From contig NZ_CP043626.1 in assembly GCF_008807415.1 (NCBI RefSeq), forward strand, positions 930,001 through 994,000: DNA of 64,000 nucleotides. Direction: 5' to 3'. The translations under genes were made by a program, and so were the position numbers. Source of the stretch: Pseudomonas denitrificans (nom. rej.). Its GTDB lineage: Bacteria; Pseudomonadota; Gammaproteobacteria; Pseudomonadales; Pseudomonadaceae. Numbering within the stretch: the stretch's first letter is position 1; every line of letters starts with the position of its first letter. A model generated the notes under the pieces. The model had not been told where the DNA came from. It did not search any database and was given only the letters and a program-made list of their open reading frames with translations. Shown in pieces: positions 3,110 to 55,653 of the stretch.

Positions 3110-4492
3110 TTACTCTTCGAAGGCAAGGGATATCTGACTGTCAGGTGGGAGATTCAAGTAAGAGATTATTGAGCCTTTCTCAATGCACTCATCGCCAGCC
3201 TTGCTTCTCCAACTGCCCTTCAGGCTCTTGCAACGTATAGTCGAGGCGGGTTTTCCGTCCAGACCTCGAACCTTAACTACATCTGCATAAATTAGATCGT
3301 CGGGCACTTCGAGTTTCACGAGGACTGGGGAGTGGGTGGCAATTAGAATCTGGCGCATTGGGTTATCCTCGCCAGTTGCTTCTGTAGGATCGACTGCAAG
3401 CTCTTTGAGTAAAGAAAGCATTGCTTGCATTTTGGCCGGGTGAATACCGTTTTCCGGCTCCTCGAAGCAGAGCAGTCCCTTGAAGTCTGGATCCTCTGCA
3501 ATTATGCAAAGCGATAAAAACCGTAACGTTCCATCCGAGAGTGCTCGTGCTGGTAGAAATGCTCCTGAACGTTCTTTTACTTCAACAGTTAGAAGCTGTC
3601 TTACCTGGTCAACATCTACTCTTACGTCCGAGGTAGGGATGATGGCTGAGAGTCGGCTTGCTACTCGAGAGTATACATTTTCATCTCTGCGGTATAGTCG
3701 GTGAAGTGTTGCAGCGAGCTTTCCTCCATCGGCGCCAACAGTTCCGTCCTCATGCATTTTGTTTGAACGTCGCATAGCGCTAGGCTCTAATGAGAGGAAA
3801 CGCCATGATTGCATTTCTCTGCGTGCAGCAAGAATCGTTGGCCAGACTGCGCTATTGGTGTTTGCAATAACTGTCTTGGGAATATGGCGTGCAGGGATTT
3901 TTTGAGGTTGACCGCTGCTACCTCCGTCTTGGTGGAGATGGATTTCAATAACACCATCATCCATTACTTGCGTCGAGATGAAGCCTGCGCCTTTACGTTT
4001 GTTAATTACGACTTGGTCGCGAAACTGGGAGGCGCTAAGAGGGAAGTTTATTAGGTTGGCCGCATCGCCTTTGTTGATGTGATTAAGCGTTTCGCGGGCG
4101 AGGTACAATCCTAATGATCCCTCTTTTTCTTCGTTGGGGTCGCGAGCGATTTCGATCTCGTACCTCAAAAATGTGGACTTTGCTTGAGCTTTTCGGCCGA
4201 AGTCATCGACTATGTCTAAGGGGACAATCATCTCGACGGCGAGGCTTATACGATCAGCCCTGTAGTCACCGTTTGTCCAGAAGATATCTAAAGGATCGGT
4301 GGACTCTGAGTCGCGTACTGCCAAGGCTGCTTCGACAATGCTCTTGTCGCTTAGGAGTGATAGGAATTTTATTGCGTCAAATATATTGGATTTCCCAACT
4401 CCGTTCAGGCCGGCTATGCAATTGAATGGGCCTAGAGACATTGAGAAATCTAGAAGATTTTTAAATCCATTTGCTTCAATCTTTGTGAGCAT
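3110..4492 (-). CDS. OLD/RecF-like AAA ATPase, probable anti-phage system sensor
   Basis: The 460-aa ATPase belongs to the AAA_21/OLD-like ABC-type group. Walker A GLNGVGKS is at 28-35, the LSDGT signature at 318-322, Walker B LLCFEE at 340-345 followed by PENGIHP, and the switch histidine in ATHSP at 385-389. The middle section (about 80-260) is a variable insertion, as is usual in these proteins. It has no nuclease domain of its own; the TOPRIM-like partner is encoded 17 bases downstream. The gene is AT-rich with rare codons for this genome, a sign of horizontal transfer. This split ATPase plus TOPRIM layout is that of known anti-phage systems, but I cannot match it to a named one. Confidence 0.72.
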   Translation of the reverse strand: MLTKIEANGFKNLLDFSMSLGPFNCIAGLNGVGKSNIFDAIKFLSLLSDKSIVEAALAVRDSESTDPLDIFWTNGDYRADRISLAVEMIVPLDIVDDFGRKAQAKSTFLRYEIEIARDPNEEKEGSLGLYLARETLNHINKGDAANLINFPLSASQFRDQVVINKRKGAGFISTQVMDDGVIEIHLHQDGGSSGQPQKIPARHIPKTVIANTNSAVWPTILAARREMQSWRFLSLEPSAMRRSNKMHEDGTVGADGGKLAATLHRLYRRDENVYSRVASRLSAIIPTSDVRVDVDQVRQLLTVEVKERSGAFLPARALSDGTLRFLSLCIIAEDPDFKGLLCFEEPENGIHPAKMQAMLSLLKELAVDPTEATGEDNPMRQILIATHSPVLVKLEVPDDLIYADVVKVRGLDGKPASTIRCKSLKGSWRSKAGDECIEKGSIISYLNLPPDSQISLAFEE

Positions 4493-43463: not shown

Positions 43464-43533
43464 GCAAATCTCCTCTGGAACGGGTTGGCCGCATTGCTGC
43501 GACTATCAAAACATTGGATTGCCCGGAATTCGT

Positions 43534-43657
43534 TTGTGGCCTTGCGAGCTAGAGCAGAACAAGGAAAAAGCAGGCGAGGACGCGGAGTTGACGTGTAGTC
43601 AATGAGCAGCCATCGCCTGCTTTTGACGCAGTTATGCCGACGCGCAGCTAGCCACAA
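43534..43657 (+). repeat. Palindromic three-helix element, copy 1
   Basis: Three nested helices: TTGTGGC/GCCACAA at the ends, AAAAGCAGGCGA (43566-43577)/TCGCCTGCTTTT (43613-43624), and TTGAC-GTGTA-GTCAA at the centre. Unpaired blocks GCGAGCTAGAGC, CAAGG, ACGCGGAGTT, AATGAGCAG and CCGACGCGCAGC are identical in copy 2 (55120-55238), while all three helices differ in sequence but remain complementary. It begins nine bases after the permease stop, in mRNA terms. It is either a miniature mobile element or a structured RNA/DNA element. Confidence 0.8.
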
Positions 43658-43665
43658 GCGGATTC

Positions 43666-45057
43666 TCAGACGATGCCGGTGGCGTAGAACGTGCCGATCA
43701 CCACGAACACCGCGAGGGTCTTGATCAGGGTGATGGCGAAGATGTCCTTGTAGGCCTCGCGGTGGGTCAGGCCGGTGACCGCGAGCAGGGTGATGACCGC
43801 GCCGTTGTGCGGCAGGGTGTCCATGCCGCCGGAGGCCATGGCCGCGACCCGGTGCAGCACTTCCAGCGGGATGTTGGCGGCGTGGGCGGCGGCGATGAAC
43901 TGCTCGGACATGGCCGCCAGGGCGATGCTCATGCCGCCCGACGCCGAGCCGGTGATGCCGGCCAGGGTGGTGACGGCGATGGCCTCGTTGATCAGCGGAT
44001 CGGGAATCTTCTTCAGCGCATCGGCCAGCACCAGGAAGCCCGGCAGCGAGGCGATCACCGCACCGAAGCCGTATTCCGAGGCCGTGTTCATGGCCGCCAG
44101 CAGCGCGCCGCCCACGGCGGTCTTGCTGCCCTCGGCAAGCTTGCTGCGGATCACCGTGAAGCTGGTCACCAGCACCAGCAGGATGCCCAGCAGCAGCGCC
44201 GCCTGCACCGCCCAGATGCCGGTCAGCTTGGCCACGTCGCTGGCCACCGGGGCGGCCATGCCGGCCAGTTGCAGGCTGTGGGTCTTGCCGTAGACCTGGG
44301 GAATCCAGTGGGTGAACAGCAGGTTGGCGACGCCCACCAGCACCAGCGGCGAGAGCGCCAGCAGCGGGTTGGGCAGCCGGATGTCGTCGGCGGTTTCCGG
44401 CTCGTTGCGCAGCTCGCTGCCGTAGCCCTCGCCGGCGGCGCGCGCCTTGCCGGCCTGGCGACGCAGGAACAGCATGCCGACGCTGAACACGAAGAGGCTG
44501 CCGATCAGCCCCAGCCAGGGCGCGGCCCAGCCGGTGGTGTTGAAGAAGGCGGTGGGGATGATGTTCTGGATCTGCGGGGTGCCGGGCAAGGCATCCATGG
44601 TGAAACTGAACGCGCCCAGGGCGATGGTCGCCGGGATCAGCCGCTTGGGAATGTTGCTCTGGCGGAACATCTCGGCAGCGAAGGGGTAGACCGCGAACAC
44701 CACCACGAACAGCGAGACGCCGCCGTAGGTGAGCAGGGCGCAGACCAGCACGATCACCAGCATCGCCTGGCTGGTGCCAAGCAGGCGGATGGCGGCGGCG
44801 ACAATGGAGCGCGAGAAGCCCGACAGCTCGATCAGCTTGCCGAACACCGCGCCGAGCAGGAACACCGGGAAGTAGAGTTTGACGAAGCCGACCATCTTCT
44901 CCATGAACACCCCGGTGAAGGCCGGGGCGACGGCGGCAGGGTCCGTCAGCAGCACCGCGAGCAGCGCCGCGATGGGGGCGAAGAGGATCACGCTGTAGCC
45001 GCGGTAGGCGGCGAGCATCAGCAGGGCGAGGGCCGCAAGGGCGATGACCACGCTCAT
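43666..45057 (-). CDS. GntP-family permease, probably for 3-hydroxybutyrate
   Basis: The 463-aa protein has about 12-14 membrane segments and GntP/ArsB-superfamily blocks (VFMEKMVGFVKLYFPVFLLG, ALPGTPQIQNIIPTAFF, ASGGMSIALAAMSEQFI, ASGGMDTLPHNGAVITLLAV). Position between the porin and bdhA in a sigma-54-driven run indicates uptake of D-3-hydroxybutyrate, as for the equivalent P. aeruginosa gene next to bdhA. The substrate is inferred from context. Confidence 0.85.
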   Translation of the reverse strand: MSVVIALAALALLMLAAYRGYSVILFAPIAALLAVLLTDPAAVAPAFTGVFMEKMVGFVKLYFPVFLLGAVFGKLIELSGFSRSIVAAAIRLLGTSQAMLVIVLVCALLTYGGVSLFVVVFAVYPFAAEMFRQSNIPKRLIPATIALGAFSFTMDALPGTPQIQNIIPTAFFNTTGWAAPWLGLIGSLFVFSVGMLFLRRQAGKARAAGEGYGSELRNEPETADDIRLPNPLLALSPLVLVGVANLLFTHWIPQVYGKTHSLQLAGMAAPVASDVAKLTGIWAVQAALLLGILLVLVTSFTVIRSKLAEGSKTAVGGALLAAMNTASEYGFGAVIASLPGFLVLADALKKIPDPLINEAIAVTTLAGITGSASGGMSIALAAMSEQFIAAAHAANIPLEVLHRVAAMASGGMDTLPHNGAVITLLAVTGLTHREAYKDIFAITLIKTLAVFVVIGTFYATGIV

Positions 45058-45150
45058 CGAAGTATCTCCAGTTGTCGCGCGGCCAGGAGCCGCGCGTCGT
45101 TCTTGTTGTAGTGGGCTTGCTTGACGATCAGGAGTCAGGCGGTCAGTTGG

Positions 45151-46401
45151 TTACCAGAGCGGCAGCACGTAGCTGAGGATCAGGCGGTTCTCGTCCAGGT
45201 CGTTGCCGAAGTGGCTGGAGCGCACCGTCGCATTGCGCCACTTCACGCCGACGTTCTTCAGCGGGCCGCTCTGCACCACGTAGCCGATATCGGTGTCGCG
45301 TTCCCATTCCTTGCCTTCGGGCTTGCCCGCGCCCAGCTCGATGCTGTCGCCGGACAGGTAGCGCGTCATGAAGGTCAGGCCGGGAACCCCGAGGGCGCCG
45401 AAGTCGTAGTCGTAGCGAGCCTGCCAGGACTTCTCGTCGCGGTTGGCGAAGTCGCCGATCTGCACGAAGTTGACCAGGAAGGCGTCGGTGCCGCCGATGT
45501 AGGCGAAGCCGGTGTCGCCGCTCATTTTCTGGTAGCCGGCGCCGAAGCCGTGGCCGCCCAGCGTGTAGGTGAGCATCGCGCCGAAGGCGCGGTTGTCGAC
45601 GTTACTGTGGCCGTCGTCGTCGGAACGCGCGTAGCGCAGATCGGTCTTCAGCGACTGGCCGGCAGCGACGGGCAGCACGTGCACCAGGTTGACGATGTGC
45701 TGGTCGTAGAGCCCGTCGAGCTTGGCGTAGCTGTAGCCGGTGGTGAGTTGCGGCGTCCACTTGTAGCTCAGGCCGGCGAAGTCGAACTGGTCGCTGGTGT
45801 CGGTGGCGACGATGCCGCGCGCGCTGCCGCTGGTGACGGTCATGTCCTCGCGGTTGGACGAGTCGCGCTGGCTCACCTGGCGCAGGCGGCCACCGTCGAA
45901 GGTCAGGCCGGCGAACTCGGCGGAATTCAGGTGCGCGCCTTCGAAGGTCTGCGGCAGCAGACGCGAATCGTTGGCCAGCACGGTGGGCAGCTTGGGCAGC
46001 AGGGTGCCGATCTTCAGCGTGCTTTTTGAGGCGCGCAGCTTGGCGGTCAGGCCCAGCTCGCTGTAGTCGTCCGGGGCGCCGTTGACCTTGTCCTTGTCGC
46101 GCGGCAGCAGGCCGGAGCCGGCGCGGTCGGGGCTGGAATCCAGCTTCACGCCGAGCAGGCCGAGGGCATCCACGCCCACGCCGATGGTGCCTTCGGTGTA
46201 GCCGGATTCGTAGCGCAGCAGAAAGCCCTGGGCCCATTCGTCCTGCTTGGACTGCGCGGCGTTGTCCTGGCGGAAGTCGCGGTTGAAGTAGAAGTTGCGC
46301 AGTTCGACGCTGGCCTTGCTGTCGGCAAGAAATTCGGCGAAGGCCTGGGGCGAAAGGACGAGGGTGGAACCGAGGGCGGCCAGAATGGCGGTACGGCTCA
46401 T
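45151..46401 (-). CDS. OprD-family outer membrane porin
   Basis: The 416-aa protein has a signal peptide (ILAALGSTLVLSPQAFAE), then the OprD/OpdK-type start FLADSKASVELRNFYFNRDF, and ends with the outer membrane signal LSYVLPLW. It should be an 18-stranded substrate-specific channel. It is the first gene after a sigma-54 promoter and precedes the GntP permease and bdhA, so 3-hydroxybutyrate or a related short acid is the likely substrate. CAGGAGAT precedes the ATG. Confidence 0.9.
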   Translation of the reverse strand: MSRTAILAALGSTLVLSPQAFAEFLADSKASVELRNFYFNRDFRQDNAAQSKQDEWAQGFLLRYESGYTEGTIGVGVDALGLLGVKLDSSPDRAGSGLLPRDKDKVNGAPDDYSELGLTAKLRASKSTLKIGTLLPKLPTVLANDSRLLPQTFEGAHLNSAEFAGLTFDGGRLRQVSQRDSSNREDMTVTSGSARGIVATDTSDQFDFAGLSYKWTPQLTTGYSYAKLDGLYDQHIVNLVHVLPVAAGQSLKTDLRYARSDDDGHSNVDNRAFGAMLTYTLGGHGFGAGYQKMSGDTGFAYIGGTDAFLVNFVQIGDFANRDEKSWQARYDYDFGALGVPGLTFMTRYLSGDSIELGAGKPEGKEWERDTDIGYVVQSGPLKNVGVKWRNATVRSSHFGNDLDENRLILSYVLPLW

Positions 46402-46534
46402 CGGGTGATCTCCTGGCGCGGCGCCGTGTGCGAAGCGGGACTAGCCGTGGTGTCCGCTGGGGTCTGTTCGCGTTCGGGCTGCGTTGATTGTTGTTATGTC
46501 GGCTGTGCGGCGCGAAGGCCGCGAGAGGCGACAT

Positions 46535-46550
46535 AGCCAGGACCGTGCCA
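46535..46550 (-). promoter_or_regulatory. Sigma-54 promoter of the porin-permease-bdhA-ligase run
   Basis: Read on the minus strand: TGGCACG-GTCC-TGGCT, with GG and GC exactly ten bases apart. The -24 element is perfect; the -12 element is TGGCT in place of TTGCA/T. It lies about 135 bases before the porin start, giving a long leader. Confidence 0.8.
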
Positions 46551-46611
46551 GGATTGTAACTATCTGATTTTCAAGTCTTATTTTGAGAAAATCGACTGCT
46601 GATGGGTATCG

Positions 46612-46706
46612 TTTGTCTCTGAATGGAGACGAATTTCCGCAGGGCTATGCCAGGGGGTAGTGATTTTGTGGAGAAACTGGCTTGTCTCGTTTTTGAGACT
46701 TGTCTC
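46612..46706. promoter_or_regulatory. Paired GTCTC-N6-GAGAC palindromes, probable enhancer for the sigma-54 activator
   Basis: GTCTC-TGAATG-GAGAC at 46615-46630 and GTCTC-GTTTTT-GAGAC at 46684-46699 share the same 16-base form, 69 bases apart; a further GTCTC stands at 46702. They lie 65-150 bases upstream of the sigma-54 promoter, the usual enhancer position. Together with the promoter they explain the 323-base gap between the activator and porin genes. Confidence 0.75.
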
Positions 46707-46724
46707 TGTTTCGGGATTGGCGGG

Positions 46725-48149
<1,425 letters not shown>

Positions 48150-48253
48150 CGGTGGGCCGTGCGCGAGAAGGGCAGAGGGCGCACTGTACCGGGATGTGGG
48201 AACGGGGTCAGTAGCGGTGAATGGGTGGGAATTTCGTAGGGGCGGCCGGCCGG

Positions 48254-48331
48254 GTAGGGCGCATAACGCCAAAGGCGTTATCCGCCGATGGCCTGGCGGG
48301 GGATAACGCGTTCCGCTTTATGCGCCCTACG
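48254..48331. repeat. REPIN-like doublet, family C
   Basis: GTAGGGCGCATAACGCCAAA, GGCGTTATCCGCC and inverted GGCGGGGGATAACGCGTTCC, CTTTATGCGCCCTACG. It fills most of the gap between hbcR and liuE. Confidence 0.75.
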
Positions 48332-48344
48332 GTCTCCGCCGACT

Positions 48345-49247
48345 TCAGCGCTTGGACAGCTGCGCCTTGGCCACGCGCGAGCCGTTGGGCTTGTCGAGCA
48401 CGGCGCAGATGCGTTGGCCGGCGTCGATCAGCAGGTCCAGGTCGATGCCGGTGTGGATGCCCAGGCCGTTGAGCAGGTAGAGCACGTCTTCGGTGGCAAC
48501 GTTGCCGGTGGCGCCCTTGGCGTAGGGGCAACCGCCGAGACCCGCGACCGAGCTGTCGAACACCGCGATGCCTTCCAGCAGGCTCGCGTAGACGTTAGCC
48601 GTGGCCTGGCCATAGGTGTCGTGGAAGTGCCCGGCCAGTTGCGCGCGCGGCACGCGCTGGCCGACGACTTCGAACATGTGCCGGGTAGCGCCGGCGGTGC
48701 CGACGCCGATGGTGTCGCCCAGGGAAACTTCATAGCAGCCCATGGCGTGCAGTTCCGCAGCGACGGCAGCAACCTGTTCCGCGTCCACCTCACCCTGGTA
48801 GGGGCAGCCGAGCACGCAGGAGACGTAGCCGCGCACGCGCACGCCGTGCTGGCGCGCGGCTTCCATCACCGGCACGAAGCGCTCCAGGCTCTCCTTGATC
48901 GAGCAGTTGATGTTCTTCTGCGAGAAGGCCTCGGAGGCGGCGGCGAATACCGCAACTTCCTTCACCTGCGATTCCAGCGCGGCCTCGAAGCCCTTCAGGT
49001 TCGGTGCCAGCGCGGCGTAGGTGACGCCGGCCTTCTGCTGGATGCCGGCGAAGACTTCGGCCGAGCCGGCCATCTGCGGCACCCACTTGGGCGAGACGAA
49101 GCTGCCGACCTCGATGTAGCTCAGGCCGGCGGCGGTGAGGTCGTCCACCAGGCGCACCTTGTCGGCGACGGCGATGGGCTGTTTCTCGTTCTGCAGGCCG
49201 TCGCGCGGGCCGACTTCGACCAGGCGGACGGATGGGGGCAGGGTCAT
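48345..49247 (-). CDS. liuE: Hydroxymethylglutaryl-CoA lyase
   Basis: The 300-aa lyase cleaves HMG-CoA to acetoacetate and acetyl-CoA, the last step of leucine breakdown. VEVGPRDGLQNEKQPI near the start, the HFHDTYGQA metal site and the GLGGCPYAKGATGNVATED signature with its catalytic Cys are present. It is last in liuABCDE, separated from liuD by a REP and a family C doublet. Confidence 0.95.
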   Translation of the reverse strand: MTLPPSVRLVEVGPRDGLQNEKQPIAVADKVRLVDDLTAAGLSYIEVGSFVSPKWVPQMAGSAEVFAGIQQKAGVTYAALAPNLKGFEAALESQVKEVAVFAAASEAFSQKNINCSIKESLERFVPVMEAARQHGVRVRGYVSCVLGCPYQGEVDAEQVAAVAAELHAMGCYEVSLGDTIGVGTAGATRHMFEVVGQRVPRAQLAGHFHDTYGQATANVYASLLEGIAVFDSSVAGLGGCPYAKGATGNVATEDVLYLLNGLGIHTGIDLDLLIDAGQRICAVLDKPNGSRVAKAQLSKR

Positions 49248-49288
49248 GGAATGTCCTCGTTGGGTTCACGCGAAGGGCGGTGCTTTCT

Positions 49289-49314
49289 GCAGGAGCGAGC
49301 TTGCTCGCTCCTGC
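49289..49314. repeat. Perfect REP palindrome, family A
   Basis: GCAGGAGCGAG-CTTG-CTCGCTCCTGC, an 11-bp perfect stem within the liuD-liuE gap. Confidence 0.75.
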
Positions 49315-49339
49315 AAATGCGGCATCAAGCGGAAGTCGT

Positions 49340-49414
49340 GTAGGGCGCATAAAGCGGAACGCTTTATCCGCCGTTGTCTGGCGGCGGATAACGCTGGCGC
49401 GTTATGCGCCCTAC
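49340..49414. repeat. REPIN-like doublet, family C
   Basis: GTAGGGCGCATAAAGCGGAA, CGCTTTATCCGCC, then inverted GGCGGATAACGCTGGCGCGT, TATGCGCCCTAC. It lies 11 bases past the liuD stop. Confidence 0.75.
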
Positions 49415-49425
49415 AAAAGCCGGCG

Positions 49426-51387
49426 TCAGGCCGACGCCTCCTCCAGCTCCACCAGCGCCGTACCTTCCGACACCAGTTCGCCTTCGCTGCAATACAGCGA
49501 TTTCACCACGCCAGCGTGCGGCGCGCGAATGCTGTGTTCCATCTTCATCGCTTCGAGCACCACCAGCGCGGCGCCGGCTTCGACGCTCTGGCCGGGTTCG
49601 ACCAGGATGCGCACGATGCTGCCGTTCATGGGCGCGCCCAGGCCACCCTGGTGCGAGTGCGCGGCTTCGGCCTCGGCGATCGGGTCGAAGCGTTGCACGC
49701 TGACCAGCTCGCCGTTCCATTCCAGGTAGAGGCTGTCGCCACGGCGGATCACCTGGTGACGGCGGCGGATTTCGCCGTCCTTCACGTCCAGCCACTGTCC
49801 ATCGAGCTTGGCAATGCGCTGGCCATCAGCGTGGCGCAGGCGCACGACATGCGACTCGCCCTTGGCCAGCAGGTGCAGGTCGGTTTCCCCCGGCAGGCCA
49901 CTGCGCCAGCCGCTCTGGGCGGACCATGGCGAATGGGCATCGTCGCCACGCACGCGGGCGGCTTCGCTCTGCACCCAGGCTTCGGCGGCGAGCTGCCAGA
50001 AACGCTCAGGCAGGGCGGTGGCCGCGGGCAGCAAGTCATCCTGGTAGCGGCCGATGAAGCCGGTATCCAGCTCGCCCTCGGCGAAGGCCGGGTGGGCCAG
50101 CACGCGGCGCAGGAAGGCCAGGTTGGTCTTGAAGCCGCCGACGGCGGTTTCGCCGAGCATCGACAGCAGGCGCTGGCGCGCTTCCTCGCGGTTCTCGCCC
50201 CAGGCGATCAGCTTGGCCAGCATCGGGTCGTAGAACGGCGAGATGTCGTCGCCCTCGCGGATGCCGCTGTCCACCCGGCGGCCGGGGCCGGCGGCGGGTT
50301 CGCGGTACAGCGCGAGGTGGCCGCTGGCAGGCAGGAAGCCGCCCTCGGGGTCTTCGGCGTAGAGGCGCACTTCGATGGCATGGCCGATCAGCGGCACCTG
50401 TTCCTGGGTGATCGGTAGCGGTTCACCACGGGCAACGCGAATCTGCAGGGCGACCAGGTCGAGGCCGGTGATGGCTTCGGTGACCGGGTGCTCCACCTGC
50501 AGGCGGGTGTTCATTTCCATGAAGAAGAACTGGCCGCTGCCTTCGTCGTAGAGGAACTCCACGGTGCCGGCGCCGACGTAGCCGATGGCCTGGGCGGCGC
50601 GCACGGCGGCCTCGCCCATGCCCTGGCGCAGTTCCAGCGAGAGGCCCGGAGCCGGCGCTTCTTCCACCACTTTCTGGTGACGACGCTGAATCGAGCAGTC
50701 GCGTTCGTTGAGGTACAGGCAGTTGCCGTGCTGGTCGGCGAATACCTGGATTTCCACGTGGCGCGGCTTGGTCAGGTACTTCTCCACCAGCATGCGCGAG
50801 TCGCCGAAACCGGACTGTGCTTCACGCTGGGCGGATTCCAGCGCCTCGGCCAGTTCGGCCTCGCGCTCGACCACCTTCATGCCCTTGCCACCGCCACCGG
50901 CGGCGGCCTTGAGCAGCACCGGGTAGCCGATGCGCTCGGCCTCGCGCTGGAAGGTCGCATAGTCCTGCGCCTCGCCGTGGTAGCCGGGTACCAGTGGCAC
51001 GCCGGCGGTTTCCATCAGCGCCTTGGCGGCGGACTTGCTGCCCATGGCGTCGATGGCGCTGGCCGGCGGGCCGAGGAACACCAGTCCGGCCTCTTCGCAG
51101 GCGCGGGCGAAGCCGGCGTTCTCCGAAAGGAAGCCATAGCCGGGGTGGATGGCCTGGGCGCCGGCGGCTTTCGCGGCGGCCAGCACGGCGTCTGCGCGCA
51201 AGTAGCTTTCAGCGGCTTTGGCGCCGCCCAGGTCGATGGCGATGTCCGCCTCCTCGACGTGGCGGGCGTTGCGGTCGGTGGCGCTGTGCACGGCCACGGT
51301 GGTCAGGCCCAGGGCCTTGGCGGTGCGCATCACGCGGCAGGCGATCTCGCCGCGGTTGGCCACCAGCAGGGTATCGATCTTCTTCAT
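49426..51387 (-). CDS. liuD: Methylcrotonyl-CoA carboxylase biotin-containing subunit
   Basis: The 653-aa alpha subunit carries a biotin carboxylase domain (LVANRGEIACRVMRTAKALG, GGGGKGM ATP loop, EMNTRLQVEHPVTE) and a C-terminal biotinyl domain with VLEAMKMEHSI, the biotin Lys being near residue 610. It carboxylates biotin and passes CO2 to methylcrotonyl-CoA bound by LiuB. Its ATG overlaps the liuC stop by one base. Confidence 0.95.
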   Translation of the reverse strand: MKKIDTLLVANRGEIACRVMRTAKALGLTTVAVHSATDRNARHVEEADIAIDLGGAKAAESYLRADAVLAAAKAAGAQAIHPGYGFLSENAGFARACEEAGLVFLGPPASAIDAMGSKSAAKALMETAGVPLVPGYHGEAQDYATFQREAERIGYPVLLKAAAGGGGKGMKVVEREAELAEALESAQREAQSGFGDSRMLVEKYLTKPRHVEIQVFADQHGNCLYLNERDCSIQRRHQKVVEEAPAPGLSLELRQGMGEAAVRAAQAIGYVGAGTVEFLYDEGSGQFFFMEMNTRLQVEHPVTEAITGLDLVALQIRVARGEPLPITQEQVPLIGHAIEVRLYAEDPEGGFLPASGHLALYREPAAGPGRRVDSGIREGDDISPFYDPMLAKLIAWGENREEARQRLLSMLGETAVGGFKTNLAFLRRVLAHPAFAEGELDTGFIGRYQDDLLPAATALPERFWQLAAEAWVQSEAARVRGDDAHSPWSAQSGWRSGLPGETDLHLLAKGESHVVRLRHADGQRIAKLDGQWLDVKDGEIRRRHQVIRRGDSLYLEWNGELVSVQRFDPIAEAEAAHSHQGGLGAPMNGSIVRILVEPGQSVEAGAALVVLEAMKMEHSIRAPHAGVVKSLYCSEGELVSEGTALVELEEASA

Positions 51388-52184
51388 CAGACTTGCTCCT
51401 GCCAGGCCGGTTTGCGTTTTTCCAGGAAGGCGCGCAGGCCTTCCTGCCCTTCGGGGCTGATGCGGATGCGGGCGATGGCGGCTTCGGTGTAGCGGCGGCG
51501 CTCGGGCGTGAGTTCGCCGGCGCCGATTTCATGGAACAGCGCCTTGCAGGCCACCAGGGCCGCCGGACTGTTGTTCAGCAGGTTGGCGATCCAGGCGTCG
51601 GCTTCGTCATCCAGATCGGCGGCCGGGTAGTGCTCGTCCACCAGGCCCAGTTCGCGGGCGCGCAGGCCGCTGAAGCGTTCGGCAGTCATGGCGTAGCGGG
51701 TGGCGGCACGCTGGCCGATGGCCTTGGTGACGAACGGGCCGATGGTCGCGGGGATCAGGCCGATGCGCACTTCGGACAGGCAGAACTGCGCGTCCTCGGC
51801 GGCCAGCGCCATGTCGCAGCAGGCCACCAGCCCGACGCCACCACCGAAGGCCGCGCCCTGCACGATGGCGAGGGTCGGCTTGTTCAGCTGGTGCAGGTTG
51901 TAGAGCAGTTCGGCGAGCTGCTGGGCGTCGTTGAGGTTGCCCTGGTAGTCCAGCTGCACGGATTCCTGCATCCACGCCAGGTCCGCGCCACCGCAGAAGT
52001 GCCGGCCGCGGCCGCGCAGCACGACCAGGCGCACGCGCTCGTCGCTGGCCACGGCAGCCAGCGCCTGGATCAGCTCGGCGATGGTCTGGGCGTTGAAGGC
52101 GTTGTTCTTCTCCGGGCGGTTCAGCCAGAGAGTGGCGACGCCGCGCGGGTCGATATCAAGCTCAATGTTCTGATAGTCGGTCAT
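51387..52184 (-). CDS. liuC: Methylglutaconyl-CoA hydratase
   Basis: The 265-aa crotonase-family enzyme hydrates 3-methylglutaconyl-CoA to HMG-CoA. Visible crotonase blocks are RGRGRHFCGGADLAWM and VQGAAFGGGVGLVACCDMAL, with SEVRIGLIPATIGPFV after. Start 52184 is the crotonase N terminus; a longer frame to 52466 overlaps liuB. It overlaps liuD by one base and is 10 bases after liuB. Confidence 0.93.
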   Translation of the reverse strand: MTDYQNIELDIDPRGVATLWLNRPEKNNAFNAQTIAELIQALAAVASDERVRLVVLRGRGRHFCGGADLAWMQESVQLDYQGNLNDAQQLAELLYNLHQLNKPTLAIVQGAAFGGGVGLVACCDMALAAEDAQFCLSEVRIGLIPATIGPFVTKAIGQRAATRYAMTAERFSGLRARELGLVDEHYPAADLDDEADAWIANLLNNSPAALVACKALFHEIGAGELTPERRRYTEAAIARIRISPEGQEGLRAFLEKRKPAWQEQV

Positions 52185-52194
52185 GGCTGCGGCC

Positions 52195-53802
52195 TTACAT
52201 GCGGAAGACGCCGAAGCGCGTGGCTTCGACAGGCGCGTTGAGCGAGGCGGAGAGGGCCAGGCCGAGCACGTCGCGGGTCTGCGCCGGGTCGATGACACCG
52301 TCATCCCACAGGCGCGCGCTGGAGTAGTAGGGGTGACCCTGGCGCTCGTACTGTTCGAGGATCGGCGCCTTGATCTTCGCCTCGTCCTCGGCCGACAGCG
52401 CGTTACCGGCGCGTTCGGCCTGCTCGCGCTTGACCTGGGCGAGCACGCCGGCGGCCTGCTCGCCACCCATCACGCCGATCCGCGCGTTGGGCCACATCCA
52501 CAGGAAGCGCGGGTCGTAGGCGCGGCCGCACATGCCGTAGTTACCGGCGCCGAAGCTGCCACCGATGATCACGGTGAACTTCGGCACCTGGGCGCAGGCC
52601 ACCGCGGTGACCAGCTTGGCGCCGTGCTTGGCGATGCCGCCGGCCTCGTACTTCTGGCCGACCATGAAGCCGGTGATGTTCTGCAGGAATACCAGCGGGA
52701 TACCGCGCTGGCAGGCCAGTTCGATGAAGTGCGCGCCTTTCTGCGCGGCCTCGGCGAAGAGGATGCCGTTGTTGGCGAGGATCGCCACCGGGTAGCCGTG
52801 CAGGTGGGCGAAGCCGCACACCAGGGTGGTGCCGAACAGTGCCTTGAACTCGTCGAATTCGCTGCCGTCGACCAGGCGGGCGATGATCTCGCGCACGTCG
52901 AAGGGCTGCTTGCTGTCTACCGGGATCACCCCGTACAGCTCGTCGCTGGCGTACAGCGGGGCGCGCGGGGCGCGGGTGTTGAGCTGGCCCTGCTTGCTCC
53001 AGTTGAGGTTGGCGATGCAGCGGCGGGCGATGGCCAGCGCGTGCTCGTCGTCCTCGGCGTAGTGGTCGGCCACGCCGGAGGTCTTGCAGTGCACGTCGGC
53101 GCCGCCCAGGTCCTCGGCGCTCACCACCTCACCAGTTGCGGCCTTCACCAGCGGCGGGCCGGCAAGGAAGATGGTGGCCTGGTTGCGCACCATGATGGTC
53201 TCGTCGCTCATGGCCGGCACGTAGGCGCCGCCAGCGGTGCAGGAGCCCATCACCACGGCGATCTGCGGGATGCCCTGGGCGCTCATGTTGGCCTGGTTGA
53301 AGAAGATCCGCCCGAAGTGCTCGCGGTCGGGGAAGACTTCGTCCTGGCGCGGCAGGTTGGCTCCGCCGGAGTCCACCAGGTAGATACATGGCAGGCGGTT
53401 CTGCTGGGCGATGGTCTGGGCGCGCAAGTGCTTCTTCACGGTCAGTGGGTAGTAGCTGCCGCCTTTCACCGTGGCGTCGTTGCCGACGATCATGCATTCC
53501 ACGCCTTCCACGCGGCCGATGCCGGCGACCACGCCAGCGGCGGCGACGTCTTCGCCGTACACGTCATGGGCGGCGAGGGCGGAGACTTCGAGGAAGGGCG
53601 AGCCGGCGTCGAGCAGGCGGTTGATGCGCTCGCGCACCAGCAGCTTGCCGCGCGCGGTGTGCTTGGCCTGGGCGGCAGCGCCGCCGCCTTCATGGACGCG
53701 GCCGAGGACGGCGCGCAGGTCCTGGACGTTCTCCAGCATGGTCGCGGCGTTGGCGGCGTATTCCGGGGAACGGGTGTTGAGTTGGGTGCCGAGGATGGTC
53801 AT
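52195..53802 (-). CDS. liuB: Methylcrotonyl-CoA carboxylase carboxyltransferase subunit
   Basis: The 535-aa beta subunit transfers CO2 from biotin to methylcrotonyl-CoA. It has the two crotonase-like carboxyltransferase halves, with [39 protein letters not shown] and [20 protein letters not shown]. Start 53802 is used because the longer frame runs into the upstream repeat. A family B doublet lies between it and liuA. Confidence 0.95.
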
Positions 53803-53826
53803 GGCGTCTCCACGTGCGAAGGGCAG

Positions 53827-53900
53827 GTAGGATGGGTGGAGCCTGCGATACCCATCGCAGGTCAAGCTGATGGGTATCGCTTCGCTCCACCCATCCTACG
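53827..53900. repeat. REPIN-like doublet, family B, between liuA and liuB
   Basis: GTAGGATGGGTGGAGCCTGC, GATACCCATC and inverted GATGGGTATCGCTTCGCTCC, ACCCATCCTACG. Confidence 0.75.
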
Positions 53901-53916
53901 AATCGGCGAGTTAGGC

Positions 53917-55080
53917 TTAACGGGTCTCGTTGAACAGCTCGCGGCCGATCAGCATGCGGCGGATTTCGCTGGTGCCGGCGCCGATCTCGTAGAGCTTGGC
54001 GTCGCGCAGCAGGCGGCCGGTGGGGAACTCGTTGATGTAGCCGTTGCCGCCGAGGATCTGGATGGCGTCCAGGGCCATCTGGGTGGCGCGCTCGGCGGTG
54101 TAGAGGATCACCCCGGCGGCGTCCTTGCGGGTGGTCTCGCCACGGTCGCAGGCCTGGGCCACGGCATAGAGGTAGGCGCGGCTGGCGTTGAGCTGGGTGT
54201 ACATGTCGGCGACCTTGCCCTGGATCAGCTGGAACTCGCCGATGCTCTGGCCGAACTGCTTGCGGTCGTGGATGTAGGGGACGATCACGTCCATGCAGGC
54301 CTGCATGATGCCGATCGGGCCACCGGCGAGGACGACGCGCTCGTAGTCCAGGCCGCTCATCAGCACCTTCACGCCGCCGTTGACTGCGCCCAGTACGTTC
54401 TCTTCCGGCACTTCCACGTCATCGAAGAACAGCTCGCAGGTGTTCGAGCCGCGCATGCCCAGCTTGTCGAACTTGCTGCCACGGCTGAAGCCTTTCCAGT
54501 CGCGCTCGACGATGAACGCGGTGATGCCGTGGGCGCCTTTCTCCGGCTCGGTCTTGGCGTAGATGACGTAGGTGTTGGCGTCCGGGCCGTTGGTGATCCA
54601 GGTCTTGCTGCCATTGAGGACGAAGCGGTCGCCGCGCTTCTCGGCGCGCAGCTTCATCGACACCACGTCGGAGCCGGCGTTGGGCTCGCTCATGGCCAGG
54701 GCGCCGATGTGCTCGCCGCTGATCAGCTTGGGCAGGTACTTGGCCTTCTGCTCGGCGTTGCCATTGCGCTTGATCTGGTTGACGCACAGGTTGGAGTGCG
54801 CGCCGTAGGACAGGCCGACCGAAGCCGAGCCACGGCTGATCTCCTCGATGGCGATGACGTGGGCCAGGTAACCCATGTTGGCGCCGCCGTACTCCTCAGC
54901 GACGGTGATGCCGAGCAGGCCCATGTCACCGAACTTCTTCCACATGTCCATGGGGAACAGGTTGTCGGCGTCGATCTGCGCGGCGCGCGGGGCGAGTTCG
55001 CTGGCGACGAAGCCCTGCACCTGCTCGCGCAGCATGTCGATGGTTTCGCCGAGGCCGAAGTTGAGGGAGGGGTAGCTCAT
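53917..55080 (-). CDS. liuA: Isovaleryl-CoA dehydrogenase
   Basis: The 387-aa acyl-CoA dehydrogenase oxidises isovaleryl-CoA to methylcrotonyl-CoA with FAD. Acyl-CoA dehydrogenase signatures [20 protein letters not shown] and [20 protein letters not shown] are present, and the glutamate of [14 protein letters not shown] corresponds to the isovaleryl-specific catalytic base position. Start 55080 fits the family. The upstream gap to liuR holds the second palindromic three-helix element. Confidence 0.95.
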
Positions 55081-55119
55081 GGGATCACCTGTACTTGTAT
55101 TTGTAATCTGATGGGTGAA

Positions 55120-55238
55120 TGGACCTGCTGCGCGTCGGCCATGCTGCGTTGAAAGCCGCCGAGAACTGCTCATTTACAAGCGTAAACTCCGCGTTCTCGG
55201 CGCCTTTCGCCTTGCCTGGCTCTAGCTCGCGAGGTCCA
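55120..55238 (-). repeat. Palindromic three-helix element, copy 2
   Basis: On the minus strand the helices are TGGACCT/AGGTCCA, AAAGGCGCCGAGAAC/GTTCTCGGCGGCTTT (one mismatch) and TTTAC-GCTT-GTAAA. Unpaired blocks GCGAGCTAGAGC, CAAGG, ACGCGGAGTT, AATGAGCAG, ACGCAG and CCGACGCGCAGC equal those of copy 1 (43534-43657). It starts ten bases after the liuR stop and ends 40 bases before the liuA start. Here its conserved sense is the same as the mRNA; in copy 1 it is the opposite. Confidence 0.8.
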
Positions 55239-55248
55239 GGAGATTGTC

Positions 55249-55653
55249 TTAAACCGGCACGCGCTGCTTGCGGGGTTTGTCGGTCTCGGCCATGGCCGCC
55301 AGGCAGCGCTCCTCGGCCGTGTCCAGTTCCAGTTTCATCTGCTCGATGTCGAGCAACTGCTGTTCCAGCTGTGCGCGGCGCGCGGTGATCTTGTCGAGGA
55401 AGGTCTGCAGCTGCTTGGTGTTGCCGCTGCTGGGGTCGTAGAGGTCGATCAGCTCCTTGCACTCGGCTAGCGAGAAGCCGATGCGCTTGCCGCGCAGGAT
55501 CAGCTTCAGTGCCACCAGGTCCTTCGCGCTGTAGACGCGCTCCTGGCCGCGGCGCTCGGGGCTGAGCATTTCCTGCTCCTCGTAGAAGCGGATGGCGCGG
55601 GTGGTGACGTCCAGTTCGCGGGCAAGCTCGGAGATGGTGTAGGTCGTGGCCAT
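55249..55653 (-). CDS. liuR: MerR-family repressor of leucine/isovalerate genes
   Basis: The 134-aa MerR protein begins MATTYTISELARELDVTTRA followed by IRFYEEQEMLSPERRGQERV, the MerR winged HTH, then a dimerising coiled coil (about 80-120). It is LiuR, which represses liu genes until branched acyl-CoA intermediates accumulate. It is the first gene of liuRABCDE. A 16-bp perfect palindrome lies 28 bases upstream over its own promoter. Confidence 0.92.
   Translation of the reverse strand: MATTYTISELARELDVTTRAIRFYEEQEMLSPERRGQERVYSAKDLVALKLILRGKRIGFSLAECKELIDLYDPSSGNTKQLQTFLDKITARRAQLEQQLLDIEQMKLELDTAEERCLAAMAETDKPRKQRVPV

Follow-up and report, generated by a model that had tools for sequence, protein, structure and literature searches.

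The window, i.e., the whole stretch of 64,000 nucleotides of Pseudomonas denitrificans (nom. rej.) analysed here (assembly GCF_008807415.1, contig NZ_CP043626.1, positions 930,001 to 994,000), carries two copies of a palindromic element, which an initial annotation had reported at 43534-43657 on the plus strand and 55120-55238 on the minus strand. Both were found at these coordinates and on these strands, sharing the four identical blocks GCGAGCTAGAGC, ACGCGGAGTT, AATGAGCAG and CCGACGCGCAGC, and all three stem pairs given for them are complementary. Judged against well-preserved relatives these limits are too short, and the full elements are those of Table 1, whose limits were set by length and by comparison with the orthologue L011 and with relatives, because the ends of the window copies themselves have diverged. 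The 9-10 bases said to separate each copy from the stop codon of an upstream gene hold for the shorter limits and arise from them, whereas the full element of each copy touches the stop codon. Relative to its own upstream gene, copy 1 is antisense and copy 2 is sense. When folded in the read strand, each copy beat 200 of 200 dinucleotide shuffles (z = -5.4 for copy 1 and -5.2 for copy 2).

Table 1. Features of the two element copies (positions are those of the window)
Feature	Position	Strand	Remarks
Copy 1, full element	43526..43665	+	140 bp, ends diverged; inverted ends GAATTCGTTTGTGGC / reverse complement GAATCCGCTTGTGGC; covariance model 131 bits
Copy 1, left internal-loop block	43544..43555	+	conserved, GCGAGCTAGAGC
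Copy 1, hairpin tip	43580..43608	+	conserved, ACGCGGAGTTGAC-loop-GTCAATGAGCA
Copy 1, right internal-loop block	43637..43648	+	conserved, CCGACGCGCAGC
TCA at right edge of copy 1	43666..43668	.	TGA stop of minus-strand open reading frame (ORF) 43666-45057
Copy 2, full element	55109..55248	-	ends decayed, right limit approximate; covariance model 140 bits
Copy 2, hairpin tip	55167..55194	-	conserved, ACGCGGAGTTTAC-loop-GTAAATGAGCA
TAA at left edge of copy 2	55249..55251	-	stop of minus-strand ORF 55249-55653, at the expected position of the left target trinucleotide

The two copies belong to a large and widespread family. Of 25 genomes of the genus, 15 contain the exact pattern of the hairpin tip (ACGCGGAGTTNAC-N-GTNAATGAGCA); it is present four times in the window's own genome, and at least at 120 loci when named genomes are scanned; the 80 loci listed lie mostly in Pseudomonas, the others in Stutzerimonas, Halomonas, Salinicola, Chromohalobacter, Kushneria, Vibrio and one metagenome-assembled genome of the Thermodesulfobacteriota. 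A covariance model built from 24 Pseudomonas copies (R1, from alignment A1) matched 24 of the 25 genomes of the genus, including the window's own, in which both window elements are among 19 copies, and at least 126 of 369 genomes and 103 of 272 genera of Gammaproteobacteria. A second model (R2), built from the 39 copies of alignment A4, matched at least 122 of 299 genomes across the phylum, rows outside the class included. These counts are lower bounds, because only nine (R1) and 13 (R2) candidates per genome were scored. The genome G017, listed as the same species but smaller, held no copy at E <= 0.001, the other 24 genomes holding 3-64 each. Copy 2 gave weak blastn matches in three Pseudomonas phage records (best E 8e-4). 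Membership of an Rfam family was rejected, as no match exceeded the gathering cut-off in the whole window; only six matches, far below cut-off, lie near copy 1, and there was none at the element in nine further loci.

Many copies have conserved ends that lie beyond the stem described in the initial annotation (e.g., TTAGAGCCTGTTCAAAGTCT ... AGACTTTGAACAGGTTCTTAG), and the commonest size between ends, which are of the GARCCTGTTYAMRRTCT type, is 139-140 bp. Insertion into terminator hairpins, an idea suggested by the outer stem reaching the flanks, was discarded, the outer 17 bp being the element's own conserved ends. These form terminal inverted repeats, with zero or one mismatch at both ends in 54 pairs of the size of a miniature inverted-repeat transposable element (MITE). 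Identical trinucleotides flank 49 of 91 pairs of terminal inverted repeats (eight of the 49 being the size of an insertion sequence), and every one of them is TNA, the duplicated target site. Loci L204-L233 and L238-L298 were fetched with a pattern demanding TNA on one side, and the loci fetched by the core instead of the end pattern (rows L016-L201) gave 24 exact duplications out of 45, again all TNA. Where the repeats have at most one mismatch, the duplication is exact in 35 of the 54 MITE-size and in all eight insertion-sequence-size pairs, many of these loci having been fetched with the TNA pattern. In the 25-genome search the site of copy 1 was recognised in 17 orthologous loci, with the element present in three and absent in 14, and it is this one site that bears on actual movement. 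Two minimal elements have their ends nearly back to back, namely L229:1504-1541 (38 bp), which keeps an exact TNA duplication, and L230:1504-1553 (50 bp), which does not.

A candidate mobiliser with the same ends was found in other genomes. In viral contigs, the scan with the end pattern returned short elements and also nine insertion sequences of 845-873 bp whose ends fit the consensus with 0-2 mismatches and eight of which have an exact TNA duplication. ORFs were tested in three of them (L242, L250 and L283), where the transposase occupies two frames in halves that match PF13340 and/or PF01609, and NF033580 (IS5 family); the 17-bp ends of the insertion sequence L242 and of the element copy L087 are equal letter for letter. 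Among 22 host genomes of the element, reached via the named loci, NF033580 was matched in 16 and above cut-off in nine. In two of these genomes, which host first-type copies, the insertion sequence is 910 bp long and shows a second end type, both of its ends being GGTTYTGTACGAAAAGT, with TA next to those ends that were readable (L357 and L358). The same letters start the element copies L110 and L125, while L097 and L167 depart from them at one base or more and L373 is a decayed element with second-type ends. An autonomous partner with shared ends exists for both types, in the IS5-type elements of 845-873 bp and 910 bp. A 1326-bp element (L368), with a transposase match below cut-off, has ends three mismatches away from a third end type, and a plasmid relative of the insertion sequences is annotated ISStma16. 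Four further elements of 267-311 bp (L241, L243, L277 and L295) have the same ends around a different interior, two of them (L241 and L295) showing an exact TNA duplication, and may be a second family of MITEs belonging to the same insertion sequences.

The initial annotation had drawn attention to helices that covary around fixed unpaired blocks, and this observation survives the shuffle test, the covariation score being reached by none of 500 shuffles in either alignment. A4 comprises the two window copies, ten copies that are named or come from viral contigs, and 27 of the loci L299-L327 (29 in all, less the close duplicates L309 and L314); L129, L169, L272 and the second copy of L244 were also left out. 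Its consensus has 31 pairs, with 96.4% of cells paired, versus 34-39% for slid partners; both sides have changed in 27 of these pairs, and 0/500 shuffles reach any of five covariation values. In A1 both sides have changed in 21 of 36 pairs and 95.1% of cells are paired; four measures were reached by 0/500 shuffles and the number of further pair types by 53/500, the tip being uninformative there because it was fixed by the search pattern. Constant letters in A4 are those of the internal loops around CAAGGC / AACGC and GCG-GAG / TGAGC. Plain duplication was rejected, because the stems differ between copies, and neither of the outcomes that the initial annotation had named as refuting its reading came about. 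The complementarity of the outer stem needs no RNA explanation, because part of that stem is the terminal inverted repeat. As to which strand folds, A4 has 89 G-U versus 6 A-C cells (54:6 without one constant pair), with 18 columns richer in G-U and one richer in A-C, which suggests that the strand with GGAG...TGAGC would be the folding one.

Since TNA reads as a stop codon on one of the two strands, an insertion at a stop duplicates it and leaves the gene intact. A lax test for the targeting of stop codons gave 49 of 74, against a null of 43 of 177 CTNAG sites taken from the flanking DNA of 28 loci; a stricter one gave 25 of 74 against 23 of 115 other CTNAG sites (one-sided p 0.026). With a codon-usage gene caller, the distance was 0 in 41 of 121 gene-facing sides of 85 copies. 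In none of the nine insertion-sequence-size elements does the duplication fall on the stop codon of an 80-codon frame. The null weakened the lax result, and the idea that stop codons are strongly targeted was dropped in favour of an excess that is moderate only. Where the target is a stop codon, the core is antisense to that gene in 18 cases and sense in three (68 of 77 copies, after removal of similar flanks and with clear orientation required); before filtering the count was 23 antisense and two sense, orientation being unclear in 34 of 81. The gene calls behind these orientations came from a codon-usage score trained on the window.

The family also reaches the ERIC repeats, which have been known since 1990-91. 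Between six ERIC loci (E. coli, two of Rahnella, Kosakonia, Citrobacter and Klebsiella) and the rows of R2, none of which is an ERIC, blastn finds only short matches of at most 47 bases. R2 nevertheless matches all six loci in the right place and orientation at 11.7-27.1 bits (over 9.2 kb), the best place outside an element scoring 8.1 bits. The E-values range from 1.5e-7 to 0.036 (the weakest for L386) and are rough owing to a short calibration, so the joint result outweighs any single one. The E. coli locus alone scores 15.6 bits with R2 and 13.3 with R1, and a copy on a Candidatus Fukatsuia plasmid scores 35.8 bits with R2. ERIC is held by 348 plasmid records, none of which is matched by copy 1, which has no blastn match in plasmids. 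We take the R2 matches to mean that the core of ERIC is homologous to that of the family, and ERIC looks like one branch of a larger superfamily. The statement in the initial annotation that no named family was known for the element thus stands with respect to Rfam, but the element has a distant relative in ERIC.

Taken together, the two window elements are probably old copies of a non-autonomous transposon, a MITE, mobilised in trans by an IS5-family transposase. In the mechanism that we envisage, a DDE transposase (NCBIfam IS5_3 type) would recognise the ends of intact relatives in trans and move the double-stranded element into TNA targets, duplicating the TNA. Movement by such a transposase into TNA is the best-supported step, and past mobility is well supported. 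Insertion at a stop codon, frequent among copies, would spare the gene. Between the ends, the long imperfect hairpin with its constant internal loops and covarying helices may work in the element's own interest as a folded RNA (or single strand), and copies placing the GGAG...TGAGC strand into host mRNA would be weeded out. What we observed directly are the ends, the duplicated target, the filled and empty states of one orthologous site, the insertion sequences whose ends match, the covariation, the broad distribution and the resemblance to ERIC; we infer both the mobilisation in trans and a role of the core as a folded single strand, most likely RNA, that is read from the GGAG...TGAGC strand. 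A broader version, which we put forward tentatively and regard as doubtful, is that the structured, single-stranded core has persisted throughout the proteobacterial phylum as a parasite in its own right, swapping its ends to ride different IS5-type transposases, with ERIC as the enterobacterial branch; the GGAG...TGAGC strand would be active and harmful in host mRNA, hence its mainly antisense position at stops.

Several observations weigh against the MITE interpretation or parts of it. Both window copies have diverged ends, with 6 and 8 mismatches to the 17-bp family consensus at copy 1 and 8 and 10 at copy 2, and neither keeps an exact target duplication; at copy 1 none is left because the left edge reads CCG in the window (CCA in the orthologue L011) against TCA on the right. 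Given these 6-10 mismatches and the loss of the duplication, the window copies are old. An exact duplication is likewise missing from 42 of the 91 pairs of terminal inverted repeats, and no clean junction is readable at the 14 empty sites of copy 1, because their intergenic DNA has diverged. Within the genus, the L242 transposase had no match in 25 genomes, in a search that carried no positive control, and PF13340 was found in three of the 25, above cut-off in only one. No mobiliser was thus found in the window's genus, where it may have been lost, and mobilisation there can only be inferred. Regarding the folding strand, when arm mismatches in 183 copies were counted without regard to strand, 226 were A-C and 206 G-T, and A1 shows 18 G-U and 15 A-C without the constant pair and eight columns each way with it (for G-U:A-C, the inner helix has 14:4 and the outer stem 4:9). 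The alignments used for the strand counts also came from models that allow G-U, and, given the antisense bias at stops, the mRNA of the flanking gene usually carries the other strand.

The near equality of A-C and G-T in the arms and the lack of an overall G-U excess in A1 are what would be expected if the covariation of the core arose by correction of the palindrome at the DNA level, through template switching at hairpins and with no selection on a folded strand. This account is compatible with a MITE, and the outer stem, as an inverted repeat, is in any case required as DNA. We consider it rather unlikely, since correction would erase the asymmetry of the internal loops, which are constant and asymmetric in the class-wide alignment, and the A4 columns (18 against one) favour G-U.

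A structured RNA or mRNA-processing element useful to the host, spread and kept by it and with transposon ends that are incidental, would account for the covarying helices and fixed loops, and is further favoured by 19 Pseudomonas loci (L091, L098, L111-L113, L116, L117, L122, L147, L150, L151, L156, L158, L162, L171, L180, L192, L197 and L203; the names include P. fluorescens, P. lini, P. farris and P. crudilactis). At these a copy lies at the same place directly before an ORF that resembles a gene for peptidyl-tRNA hydrolase (pth), and in the orientation of that gene. The conservation of the tip at these sites is not independent evidence, because the loci were chosen by the exact tip pattern; the copy before the pth-like ORF is nonetheless a candidate for a domesticated regulatory RNA. 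For ERIC, too, orientation-dependent changes in transcript stability have been reported (PMC2229807, PMC10969869), and the present element may likewise have an effect on mRNA. For the family as a whole we regard a host RNA as improbable, in view of the presence and absence of the element at an orthologous site, the exact TNA duplications and the opposite orientations of the two window copies relative to their genes.

The suggestion in the initial annotation that the element may be a mobile hairpin is borne out by the terminal inverted repeats, the TNA duplications and the insertion sequences with the same ends. Its further idea of copying as single-stranded DNA (REP/RAYT or IS605 type HUH transposition), to which a strong hairpin with conserved unpaired bases lends some appeal, was rejected as very improbable in view of the same terminal inverted repeats, 3-bp duplications and matching-end insertion sequences, which point to an ordinary DDE transposase.

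Copies of the family vary in several other ways. L129 (Vibrio maerlii), L169 and L188 share the tip exactly and have different arms, scoring only 23-26 bits with R1. Extra hairpin modules are inserted at recurring sites in one arm, left or right, or in both arms (L008, L016, L024, L030, L119, L178, L179, L184, L189 and L211), and a right-arm module with other stems is also present in L179. In L034, copies at 2384-2500 and 3292-3410 form an inverted pair about 900 bp apart with two divergent cobalamin riboswitches (RF00174) between them; genome G021 has a similar pair (L035), the riboswitch search having covered L034 only.

In a 2007 review, matching insertion sequences are said not to have been looked for or found for repeats of this kind, RUP excepted (PMC2229807). 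The family supplies wide-ranging relatives of ERIC, insertion sequences with ends matching those relatives, and a covariance model, and therefore opens to testing the questions of its origin, of its mobiliser and of what the conserved fold does. It also carries a warning, namely that covariation between paralogous hairpins need not imply a host regulatory RNA. In the open-licence literature we found no description of the family in Pseudomonas or of a phylum-wide relative of ERIC.

Among known systems, the IS5-family insertion sequences (NF033580) share with the element the 17-bp end consensus and the TNA duplication, and their 910-bp members the second end type, but the element lacks the length for a transposase gene and has a hairpin as its interior. 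REP and REPIN sequences are likewise small intergenic palindromes in Pseudomonas, but they depend on a different enzyme and are not known to show such a target duplication. Systems of the IS605 / REP type are defined by an HUH enzyme and by the absence of inverted-repeat ends and of a target duplication, whereas the family has inverted-repeat ends, a target duplication and a DDE partner. REP / REPIN with RAYT are reported as 20-40 bp (PMC3733652). MITEPsy1 of Pseudomonas syringae is reported to be a MITE with IS5-type ends whose movement has been shown, 100 nt long with 18-nt ends and a CTAG or YTAA duplication (PMC3189936). Some of the intergenic repeats of P. fluorescens (R0, R2, R178 and others) are reported to form hairpins and to share ends with insertion sequences (PMC2718517). 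Judged by these descriptions, MITEPsy1 differs in length, ends and duplication, and both could overlap with the family. ERIC resembles the family most in its core, a long imperfect hairpin in which AAGGC, GGAG, TTAC-loop-GTAA, TGA and AACGC follow one another and pair as they do in the family. ERIC (also IRU or RU-1) is, in contrast, 127 bp long, against 139-140 bp, and its own ends differ from the GARCCTGTTYAMRRTCT-type ends; it is reported to have TA at its termini and Enterobacteriaceae and Vibrionaceae as hosts (PMC2229807, PMC10969869), while the family has a TNA duplication and a much wider range.

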